A stretch of DNA of 64,000 bases from an uncultured Thermoguttaceae bacterium. GTDB lineage: Bacteria; Planctomycetota; Planctomycetia; Pirellulales; Thermoguttaceae. This document shows, piece by piece, positions 58,885 through 63,055 of this stretch. How positions within the stretch are numbered: position 1 is the stretch's first letter; every line of letters starts with the position of its first letter. A program made the position numbers and the translations under genes. The notes beneath the pieces are model-generated. The model was given only the letters and a program-made list of their open reading frames with translations, searched no databases and was not told the origin of the DNA. The stretch covers positions 1 to 64,000 of the forward strand of contig CALKER010000020.1 of assembly GCA_938084835.1 (NCBI GenBank). Direction: 5' to 3'.

Positions 58885-59952
58885 TTACGGGGTATTTCCA
58901 TCGCCCGCCGGTTCTGAAAGAAGACGAAGTTCCCGGGGAGGGCAAAACCGAAGAGTTTCTTCGCGGAATTTGCGCACTTCCACAGTGGCTCCAAACTTCT
59001 CCACTATCCAATCGATGCACTCCTGGACGGACTGTTCCGGTGCGCTGGCCCCGGCGGTAAGGGCCACGGTTTTTGCATCGGCCAGCCACTTTGGGTGGAT
59101 TTGAGAAGCCTCGTCGATCAAATAAGCCGCAGTCCCACAGGCTCGGCCAATTTCGACCAGCCGGCGGCTATTCGAGCTGTTTTGACTTCCCACCACGAGG
59201 ATGACGTCAACCTCCCCAGCTATCGCGCGGACGGCTTCCTGGCGATTTTGTGTAGCGTAGCACAGGTCGCCGTGCGGTGGTCCGACTATTTGAGGAAACC
59301 GGGCGCGGAGTCGGGCCGTGATGCGGTCAACTTCCTCTTGAGCCAATGTGGTTTGCGTCAGGTAGGCAACCGGCAAGTTATCAGGGACCTCCAGCCGGTC
59401 CACGTCCTCAGGGGTGCTCACAAGGCGGATGGCCTCCGGAGCCTCTCCCATGACGCCAACGATTTCTTCGTGACCTTTATGGCCGACAAGCACGATGGTG
59501 AATCCTTGCTCGGCCAACACACGCGCGCGTCGATGGACCCTCATCACCAAAGGACAGGTGGCGTCAATAGTCCTGAGCCCTCGCTCTGCCGCTTGATGTC
59601 GTACTTTCGGAGCTACTCCGTGGGCGGAGTAAAGTAACACGCTTCCGGCGGGTACATCCTTCAGGTCCTCCACAAAGATGACTCCTCGCCGCCGGAATGA
59701 TTCCACAATTGCGCGATTATGAACTATTTCGTGGTAGACATACACTGGTGGGCCAAAACGCCGGAGGGTTTCCTCAAGGGCATCAACGGCCATGCGGACA
59801 CCGGCGCAGAATCCACGCGGTTCCACGAGAATTAATCGGAGGTGATTTTTTCGCCCGGCGGGGTTACGGAAAGAGTCCTCCGCGGACGAGATCAGGGACC
59901 TTTTTGCGTCATTTCCCATAGTTGTGGCAGTTGCACTGTTTGTCGGATACAT
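58885..59952 (-). CDS. ispH: 4-hydroxy-3-methylbut-2-enyl diphosphate reductase
   Basis: A 355-aa iron-sulfur enzyme, the last step of the MEP isoprenoid pathway, making IPP and DMAPP. The three cluster Cys are in EPRGFCAGV, IDATCPLV and GDLCYATQN. Substrate-binding residues are in YVYHEIVHN, SAHGVAP, VGHKGHEE, YLTQTTL and GSQNSSNS. The core begins at about residue 38; the first 37 residues are low-similarity, and Met13 (59916) may be the real start. It is divergent from the squalene-synthase-like gene 515 bp away, also an isoprenoid protein. Confidence 0.95.
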   Translation of the reverse strand: MYPTNSATATTMGNDAKRSLISSAEDSFRNPAGRKNHLRLILVEPRGFCAGVRMAVDALEETLRRFGPPVYVYHEIVHNRAIVESFRRRGVIFVEDLKDVPAGSVLLYSAHGVAPKVRHQAAERGLRTIDATCPLVMRVHRRARVLAEQGFTIVLVGHKGHEEIVGVMGEAPEAIRLVSTPEDVDRLEVPDNLPVAYLTQTTLAQEEVDRITARLRARFPQIVGPPHGDLCYATQNRQEAVRAIAGEVDVILVVGSQNSSNSRRLVEIGRACGTAAYLIDEASQIHPKWLADAKTVALTAGASAPEQSVQECIDWIVEKFGATVEVRKFREETLRFCPPRELRLLSEPAGDGNTP

Positions 59953-60467: not shown

Positions 60468-61424
60468 ATGCTAAGTGTTCCTGACCATTTGGTGGGTAGG
60501 TCGGCCGCGGATCTCCAACGTTATGGACCGTTGGAAACCATCCGCCAACCGGTGGACCTCCGCACCGCGCGGAAGTATTGTGCTCAGTTGGTGCGTGGCT
60601 TTTTCCCCAATTTTACGCTTTTTCGTCTTGTTGTGCCTTACCGATTACAGCAGCATCTCAGCAACATCTTTGCCTTTTGGAAGTGGGGAAAAGATTTAAG
60701 CCTGCATGTTCAGGATCGGCGAAGCGGCCTTGCCCTCCTGGATTGGTGGCACCGCTCGCTTCAGGACTGCTACGCGGGCGTGGCCGTGCATCCGGTGTTT
60801 GTCGCATTGCGGGAAACAATCGAAGTGTTCACCATTCCTCGGGATCCTTTCGCCGACTTGCTTGCCGGGTTTCGTCAGGACCAGCAGGTGCGGCGTTATT
60901 ATTCCGTGGAAGAGTTACTCGCGTATTGCCGGTACAGTTGCAACCCACTTGGTCGCCTGGTGCTCTATGTGGGAGAGTGTTCGCATCCGGCCTTTTTCAG
61001 AATAGTGGATGATTTGTGCACGGGGGCTGCGTGGGTGAGCTTTTGCTTTAATCTTGCCCGCAATGTGCGTTCACAACGCATTCTCGTACCTTTGGCTCGG
61101 GCCGCTCGTTATGGTTATACCGAAGAGGATTTTCTTGCAGAACGCTACAACGAACCCTTTTGTTTATTCCTCCAAGGAGAATTGGCAGAAGCCGAAGGTT
61201 GGCTGCGGGCGGGACTTGACGGCGTCGATCGGCTGCCGCGGTGGATCCAACTTGCCGCGGGAATTCTTGTTTGTGAAGCTCTGGAACTAATCCAGCGCTT
61301 ACGAGCCCATAAATACAATGTGTGGACGATATCGCCCCCACAAAGGCGGTGGCGCGAGTGGTATATAGCGGGGAAAGTGTGGTGGCTGTGTCGCCGGGGT
61401 CGCCTTCGGTCGCTCCTGCCTTGA
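60468..61424 (+). CDS. Hydroxysqualene synthase (HpnC)-like protein lacking both Asp motifs
   Basis: A 318-aa squalene/phytoene synthase-fold protein, closest by eye to HpnC. Shared blocks: HPVFVALRETIEVFTIPRDP, FADLLAGFRQDQQVRRYYSV, LLAYCRYSCNPLGRLVLYVG, ILVPLARAARYGYTEEDFLA. HpnC proteins carry DDxxDE in the first active-site helix and DVxxD in the second. Here they read KDLSLH (75-80) and FNLARN (194-199), with both second-motif Asp changed to Asn. These Asp bind the Mg ions and diphosphate, so catalysis by the normal mechanism is unlikely. A partner subunit, regulator or lipid-binding role is possible. No frameshift or stop is present. Confidence 0.8.
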   Translation: MLSVPDHLVGRSAADLQRYGPLETIRQPVDLRTARKYCAQLVRGFFPNFTLFRLVVPYRLQQHLSNIFAFWKWGKDLSLHVQDRRSGLALLDWWHRSLQDCYAGVAVHPVFVALRETIEVFTIPRDPFADLLAGFRQDQQVRRYYSVEELLAYCRYSCNPLGRLVLYVGECSHPAFFRIVDDLCTGAAWVSFCFNLARNVRSQRILVPLARAARYGYTEEDFLAERYNEPFCLFLQGELAEAEGWLRAGLDGVDRLPRWIQLAAGILVCEALELIQRLRAHKYNVWTISPPQRRWREWYIAGKVWWLCRRGRLRSLLP

Positions 61425-61583
61425 GAGCACCGGGAGAAAAGGCCGAAATTAGGTGGCCACGCACGTGTTTTTCTCTCCGAGGATCGCCTGGCTGAGTTTA
61501 CGGCAAAACAAAAGAAGCCACTTTTTTTAGATTGTGAAGCTTGCGCCTTGTTGGGGGGTTGCTCTTTCTAGTGTCCTCATTGC

Positions 61584-61611
61584 TTGACAAGCAGTGAAGA
61601 AAGAGGATAAT
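61584..61611 (+). promoter_or_regulatory. Sigma70-type promoter of the riboswitch transcript
   Basis: TTGACA (61584-61589), 16-bp spacer, GATAAT (61606-61611). The expected start, about 61618, is just upstream of the riboswitch core. Confidence 0.65.
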
Positions 61612-61624
61612 AACGGCGATCTTG

Positions 61625-61836
61625 TTTTCTCTGCGGTGGTGGTCGACTCCTCGGCCTGGGGAGCCGACAAACAAGGGAACACCGGTGCAAGTCCGGGACG
61701 GCCCCGCCGCTGTGACCGTGCATGTGGGAAGTCCCACTCGTTTTCGTGGCCATTGTCGCCAGCGATCCGCTTCCGCGGGTCCAGGGGGTGATGAGAAGGC
61801 CGGGACTTCCGACGCGGAAGTCAGCAGACCTACCAC
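61625..61836 (+). ncRNA. Cobalamin riboswitch
   Basis: Conserved AdoCbl/B12-class elements appear in order: AAGGGAACACCGGTGCAAGT with CCGGGACGGCCCCGCCGCTG and TGACC (61673-61720), CCATTGTCGCCAGCG near 61750, GATGAGAAGGCCGGG near 61790, and the B12-box-like GGAAGTCAGCAGACCTACC ending near 61834. Boundaries are approximate. Cobalamin binding normally represses downstream expression. The next plus-strand gene is the DUF1559 protein at 62213, 377 nt on. I see no certain terminator or sequestered RBS hairpin between them, so the expression platform is undetermined. Confidence 0.9.
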
Positions 61837-62212
61837 TGCAGCAGCCGGGTTCGCCTGCGCGGGCAGGTTGCCGGCTAGCGGTGAGGCCTCACTTTGGCGA
61901 TTTAGCCCAGGCTTTATCAGCTTCGGGCGTTCGTATCATCGGGCTGTAAGTGTCGTCCGCGCGAGCGCGCATCGTAAACGGTAAAGTCTGCGGCTCGCTC
62001 ACGGTGATATTCTGCGCCCAGCAAGGGTGCTCTCGGGCCCCAGGCGGTTGGGGGATCGTCAATCTGGGCGATGAACCTCGCGGAGAGTGATCCCTCACCG
62101 GCTTTTTTGCGCCGCTTGTTTTCCCTCAAAGCCATGTAAAACGGAAATGAAGAAACGAGTGAGGGTGCGTGTCAATCCTCCGAATGTCAATTCTCCACAC
62201 AGGAGCTTTAAC

Positions 62213-63055
62213 ATGTTTCCCGGATTTCGAATATGTACAAAAGTTCAGATCCTGAAGCCATGGCGTCTGCATCGGGCCGCGTTCACGTTGGTGGAGCTGC
62301 TTGTCGTCATCGCGATTATTGGCGTTTTGATTGCCCTTCTTTTGCCGGCGGTTCAAGCGGCTCGAGAAGCAGCCAGGCGAGCCCAGTGTGCGAATAATCT
62401 CAAGCAGAATACGCTTGCCGTGCTTCTTTATCACGATGCCTTTCTGTGTTTGCCCCCTTCCACCATTCTGCAAACCGATTGGTCCCAACCCACGGTCACA
62501 TGGTTTGCAGCAGTGGATTACTCCACCAACACCGTAAACACAGAAAAAGGGCTGATCGTTCCGTACATTGAGCGGAATACAGCCGTTTACCGTTGCCCCA
62601 CACGGACCGATCAGATTGTGCAGTTATACCAGGGGGCCACGGGCGGTTACGGGTACAACATGAATTTGGGTTATGTGGACTACTCTAATTGGCCGAATCC
62701 CCCCCGCCAGGTGGTGCGGAATCTGGCGTATTTCCCTTCCACAAGCCGAACAGTTGTGTTCACTGATGCTGCCCGAATTCAGCTTCCCTGGGCCGGCGAT
62801 CCTCAACTTAAGGCCACTGAAAATTTCTACATCTCCGGCCCGGAGGACTATTTTCTATTTACCGAGCCAGGAACACATTTTCGCCATGGAGGGAATGTGG
62901 CCAACGTGAGCTTTCTCGACGGGCACGTGGAAGCGATGAAAGAAGTTTGGGTCAATTCGCCTAGCCACTGGCCGCCGGAAGCCGTGGAGCTTCGCAAAAA
63001 ACTGGTCATTGGCTATCTCAGCGACAAAAGTGTCGAGCTTTACCGACCATATTAA
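62213..63055 (+). CDS. DUF1559 protein with prepilin-type N-terminus
   Basis: About 280 aa from ATG 62213, chosen over upstream in-frame ATGs (62087, 62147) because AGGAG sits 7 nt before it. The N-terminus [20 protein letters not shown] is a type IV prepilin/pseudopilin methylation signal, and [20 protein letters not shown] is the DUF1559 signature. The C-terminus has the H-x9-DG motif in [22 protein letters not shown]1559 proteins are greatly expanded in planctomycetes and are thought to be surface or secretion-linked; their role is unknown. It is the first gene after the cobalamin riboswitch. The next gene is convergent. Confidence 0.92.

Follow-up and report, generated by a model that had tools for sequence, protein, structure and literature searches.

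The hpnC-like gene and its surroundings

The window, by which we mean the whole analysed stretch of 64,000 nucleotides, carries a gene of the squalene/phytoene synthase family that is arranged divergently to ispH (Table 1). Its open reading frame starts with ATG and runs through all codons without an internal stop, and the Pfam family SQS_PSY (PF00494) matches residues 48–294 of the product with 136 bits, against a gathering cut-off of 26. The NCBIfam model of HpnC (TIGR03464) has given 174 bits for this protein and 199 and 214 bits for its counterparts in G002 and G001, the two other genomes of the genus, all of them below the curated cut-off of 250.45, and relatives outside the genus have scored 329–343 bits. 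The original prediction, made from the letters of the window, of an HpnC-like protein with an intact frame in which the aspartate motifs read KDLSLH and NLARN, has been confirmed by an open reading frame check and by alignment to relatives, and its naming of ispH as the divergent neighbour is likewise correct. As the pattern is found throughout the genus, in two more species besides the window's own, the loss of the motifs is not due to chance.

Table 1. Position of the hpnC-derived gene, its degenerate motifs and its flanking markers in the window
Feature	Coordinates	Strand	Basis
HpnC-derived squalene/phytoene synthase-family protein lacking the catalytic metal site	60468..61424	+	318 aa; PF00494, TIGR03464, tree, Foldseek
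ispH (lytB), divergent neighbour, marker of the ancestral hpnC locus	58885..59952	-	TIGR00216, 304.6 bits, above cut-off
First aspartate motif, degenerated to K75 D76 L S L79 H80 from canonical D D L A D E	60690..60707	+	aligned with 32 intact HpnC and with CrtM D48/D49/D52
Second motif, degenerated to N195 L A R N199 from canonical D V A R D	61050..61064	+	alignment to relatives
Place of hpnD and hpnE in relatives; no remnant here	61425..62086		tblastn of relatives' hpnD and hpnE

A two-sequence AlphaFold2 model of moderate confidence (pLDDT 62) has been used for the fold only, since side chains cannot be judged from it. Its best Foldseek match is 4hd1, the HpnC of Alicyclobacillus (TM 0.81 by target, E 4.6e-10), followed by CrtM-like enzymes and YisP (3we9), the latter having been detected by sequence as well. 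Judged from this model, the class I terpenoid synthase (squalene-synthase) fold is kept. No conserved DNA element has been found between ispH and the hpnC-derived gene. On the other side of the gene lies a Cobalamin riboswitch (RF00174, 74.9 bits, 61623–61851, plus strand), which separates it from a DUF1559-like/prepilin-type open reading frame (62087–63055) that is 91.5% identical in G002.

Descent of the gene and loss of the pathway

The genus has been sampled by three draft genomes of 93–98% completeness, the window's own (G000), G001 and G002 (Thermoguttaceae MAG SKYB5, JANXBW010000028), and a genome-wide search has returned exactly one SQS_PSY gene in each of them. The own protein is 63–64% identical to that of G002 and 49% to that of G001. 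In a tree of 62 proteins, built without any NDUFAF6 sequence, the split between HpnC and HpnD is fully supported (100%), and the three genus proteins form a single clade inside HpnC (support 100/99) in which G001 branches first; the conserved clade for which the original prediction had proposed to look does exist. The divergent ispH–hpnC pair has been kept in G001 and G002 as in G000, and also in G034, G006 and the single-contig genome G026 (4.81 Mb), all three of which have the gene order ispH (divergent), hpnC, hpnD, hpnE. Tree and synteny alike place the gene in common descent with HpnC. Because it is the sole SQS_PSY gene of its genome and occupies the ancestral locus beside ispH, it is the hpnC of the genus itself, vertically inherited and left after the loss of its pathway. 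The non-catalytic paralogue that had been postulated is thus no paralogue; the other half of that proposal agrees with the missing canonical metal site, the conserved clade and the purifying selection described below. A class-wide profile search has set the genus apart with 591–621 bits, followed by a gap to at most 391 bits, and no further degenerate copy has been found in 119 family genomes or in the 30 top matches of a search of 397 class genomes. A search for relatives on viral contigs has yielded none, and a scan of genome contigs has led back to G002 only.

HpnC converts presqualene diphosphate to hydroxysqualene and works together with HpnD and HpnE, and in most other pathway-bearing members of the family hpnC and hpnD are both present and usually adjacent. 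In Planctopirus limnophila, the pink pigment has been shown to disappear with hpnD (PMC11958385). Family searches of the three genus genomes have returned no HpnD besides the HpnC-like gene itself, a best score of ∼53 bits for HpnE against a cut-off of 283, and at most 37 bits for a squalene-hopene cyclase, compared to 659–670 bits in three relatives. At the locus, tblastn of the relatives' hpnD and hpnE matches hpnC itself only. The search for other HpnC or HpnD genes that the original prediction had called for has therefore come back empty, and the role as a partner of HpnC/HpnD that it had considered is excluded, as the genus has no other HpnC, no HpnD, no HpnE and no hopene cyclase.

Elsewhere in the family, genomes such as G003, G022 and G033 are without HpnC, HpnD, HpnE and a clear hopene cyclase. 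This distribution suggests that the hopanoid pathway has been lost repeatedly within the family, and since these other pathway-less members are left without any hpnC, retention of hpnC after pathway loss is not the default. A separate observation concerns a polyprenyl synthase gene that lies near a weakly hopene-cyclase-like gene (G000:C5:171724-175459; G002:C66:75072-78874); a similar pairing occurs in further genomes of the family, e.g., G012:C120:52020-54683, and it has been kept in the genus despite the loss of the hopanoid pathway.

The active site of the three genus proteins

CrtM positions have been assigned by alignment, with 32 intact HpnC proteins as reference and a list of CrtM pocket residues that we take as established structural knowledge rather than as a result of the analysis. 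At the equivalents of CrtM D48, D52, N168, D172 and D176, the own copy has K, L, S, N and N, and so none of the five ligands is kept (S191, the equivalent of N168, stands four residues ahead of N195); G002 has K, I, V, D and D (two kept) and G001 K, D, H, N and A (one kept). The two aspartate motifs and the NxxxDxxxD metal site that define HpnC are accordingly gone from the own copy, and the exchange of D48 for lysine is common to all three species. Outside the genus, D48, N168, D172 and D176 have been kept in every HpnC with these positions aligned, both across the family and among the class-wide best matches, with departures at D52 in a small number of divergent copies from the family. The claim that all diphosphate-binding aspartates have been lost holds for the five metal-ligand positions; it overlooked D76, the equivalent of CrtM D49 and second of the DD pair, which survives in the first motif. 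R204 and Y153 (CrtM R181 and Y129) are kept as well. Intact motifs in the nearest orthologues, which would have spoken against the original prediction, are seen in part only: motif 2 is intact in G002 (DLAMD), which has lost motif 1 and N168, and fully intact sites occur only outside the genus. Since G002 alone has kept motif 2 within the genus, it would on this tree have been lost separately in G000 and G001; with both of its motif-2 aspartates, G002 may possibly show residual Mg binding there.

The exchanges are concentrated in the pocket. Of 79 columns that are invariant in the 32 intact HpnC proteins, 24 belong to the pocket and 55 do not; G000 has kept 7 of the former and 45 of the latter, G002 10 and 45, and G001 14 and 50 (Fisher p for pocket versus other columns: 1.5e-5, 0.001 and 0.001, respectively). 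Nine of the invariant columns have been lost in every genus member, all of them in the pocket or adjoining it. Some replacements are themselves constant: the three species share F68, K75, W189 and E270, which occupy pocket positions or adjacent ones and stand in place of residues invariant in intact HpnC. The equivalents of Q165, N168, D172 and D176, on the other hand, vary freely among the three proteins. An alternative set of aspartates, which would have spoken for a competent site, is not seen in the alignment, as acidic gains at mapped pocket positions amount to zero and the nearby gain is E270, at CrtM 247; a metal site of another make-up, which a model of this quality would not reveal, may still exist. 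Read at the level of sequence, a scaffold that is kept around a dismantled catalytic site is the signature of a pseudoenzyme.

Selection, competing readings and known systems

Between G000 and G002, the divergence of the gene is 0.63 at third positions and 0.73 at four-fold sites, which is near saturation, and none of the three species carries a stop in its copy. A neutral simulation at the same third-position divergence has left 11% identity and about 11 stops per 300 codons. In codon models, omega=1 has been rejected for the genus clade (2dlnL 357) and for the branches within it (315), and on single tips for G000 (25.8) and, more weakly, for G001 (7.1) and G002 (4.8). Omega estimates themselves are unreliable, as branch lengths run into synonymous saturation, and pairwise codon fits of the two most distant hpnC pairs have become stuck at parameter bounds; profiles and likelihood-ratio tests have been used instead. 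As synonymous sites are saturated while 63% of the amino acids are identical, and as omega=1 is strongly rejected, the HpnC-derived protein is under purifying selection. It evolves faster than its neighbours, with 63% identity between G000 and G002 compared to 72% for ispH and 89% for serA.

We consider a squalene-synthase-fold pseudoenzyme, retained for a selected non-catalytic role, to be the best explanation, with a probability of roughly 0.6. According to this reading, the ancestor of the genus would have lost the squalene/hopanoid pathway (hpnD, hpnE, shc) and retained hpnC, whose active site would then have been dismantled by the exchange of D48 for lysine and the loss of N168 and Q165; the second-motif aspartates would have followed later, in two separate events on different lineages. 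Because the fold and the conserved non-pocket residues have been kept under purifying selection, the task for which the protein is selected would be one that can do without Mg-dependent diphosphate ionisation. Such ionisation is probably absent and squalene-type chemistry would be absent with it; HpnD, the maker of the HpnC substrate, is absent too. By analogy to known cases, the protein would most likely act as a scaffold or carrier for a hydrophobic ligand or a protein partner, perhaps a soluble or membrane-peripheral one resembling NDUFAF6, in which the hydrophobic cavity or the surface of the old fold would bind a prenyl chain or a protein; which of these it might be is a guess. Complex I genes, including nuoH, exist in the genus, and for this reason an NDUFAF6-like role is allowed, but it is unsupported.

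Two alternatives leave the protein a chemistry of its own. A prenyl diphosphatase with an altered site, in which FPP would still be bound and hydrolysed to farnesol, would fit the detection of YisP by both sequence and fold, the phosphatase activity towards FPP with which YisP is cited in PMC10148934, and the combination found in G002, where D172 and D176 are present without N168 as in the YisP alignment; since D172 and D176 have also been lost in the own copy (N/N) and in G001 (N/A), there is no clade-wide metal site, and we regard this as unlikely. A rebuilt enzyme, in which K75, E270 and W189 would serve a metal-independent reaction or bind the diphosphate through the lysine, could account for the constancy of these residues and of F68 in three species, all unlike the intact consensus, and for the retained R204 and Y153; a tuned active site should not tolerate the free variation at the equivalents of Q165, N168, D172 and D176, which makes this reading improbable to a similar degree.

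The remaining alternatives deny the gene a function or its genomes their completeness. A relic that has been decaying since the loss of the pathway and is still open by chance would explain the fast evolution relative to ispH and serA and the loss of motif 2 in two lineages, but it is strongly disfavoured by synonymous saturation at 63% protein identity with stops absent in three species, by the rejection of omega=1 both for branches inside the genus and for the G000 branch taken singly, and by the other pathway-less family genomes, which have no hpnC at all. That the assembly or binning has misled us, or that a true hpnC or hpnD lies in an unassembled part, might be argued from the draft state of all three genomes; as all three agree in their one degenerate gene, in its locus and in the genes that are missing, and as the locus lies well inside contigs of 64–302 kb with downstream sequence present, this is very unlikely.

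The preferred reading of a pseudoenzyme implies that a squalene-synthase fold can outlast the loss of its entire pathway and stay under selection, and active-site loss could be followed through several stages next to close relatives with an intact site. It also carries a warning for annotation, as the domain match would here mislead one into predicting squalene or hopanoid synthesis for the genus. The variant is known from three genomes, the window's own included, and among the papers searched, none has matched inactive HpnC catalytic residues.

With HpnC (TIGR03464; 4HD1) the protein shares the orthologous gene and locus, the fold and the best structural and sequence match, and it differs in its five replaced metal ligands, its score below the cut-off and a genome without HpnD, HpnE and squalene-hopene cyclase. 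YisP, too, is bacterial and belongs to the SQS_PSY family without being a squalene synthase, and in published structure work its first motif is reportedly depleted of aspartate; according to the alignment it keeps the motif-2 aspartates, whereas motif 2 has been lost here in two of three species (the own copy and G001) and such a combination is left in G002 only. The Bacillus subtilis protein (3WE9), of squalene-synthase fold, is described as an FPP phosphatase (PMC10148934). The small subunit of plant geranyl diphosphate synthase is a non-catalytic, regulatory relative of isoprenoid synthases without DDxxD (PMC7839719) and thus a comparable case of a catalytically dead relative; in the heteromeric synthase it is joined to a large subunit that carries out the catalysis, whereas no catalytic SQS_PSY sister exists here. 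Besides YisP, the bacterial precedent, a parallel in kind is offered by NDUFAF6/NDU1, an SQS_PSY-family assembly factor of complex I that has been retained although both DxxxD motifs are lost; a nematode homologue without these motifs has shown no SQS/PSY activity (PMC8007014, PMC12470011). The own copy has likewise kept the SQS_PSY fold and lost both motifs, but NDUFAF6 is eukaryotic and mitochondrial, whereas the present protein is a bacterial HpnC descendant that the tree places inside bacterial HpnC. We tentatively propose, as somewhat less than an even chance, that it is an independent counterpart of NDUFAF6, a bacterial pseudoenzyme derived from HpnC with its pocket rebuilt around K75, W189 and E270 for another ligand or partner. 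If this is true, the enzyme ancestor and the order of losses of such a counterpart could be read from living relatives, and the question that NDUFAF6 poses, namely what the fold does without its chemistry, would become testable in a bacterial system. On our best reading, squalene-synthase-fold pseudoenzymes are already known as a kind, and what is new is one that descends from HpnC.
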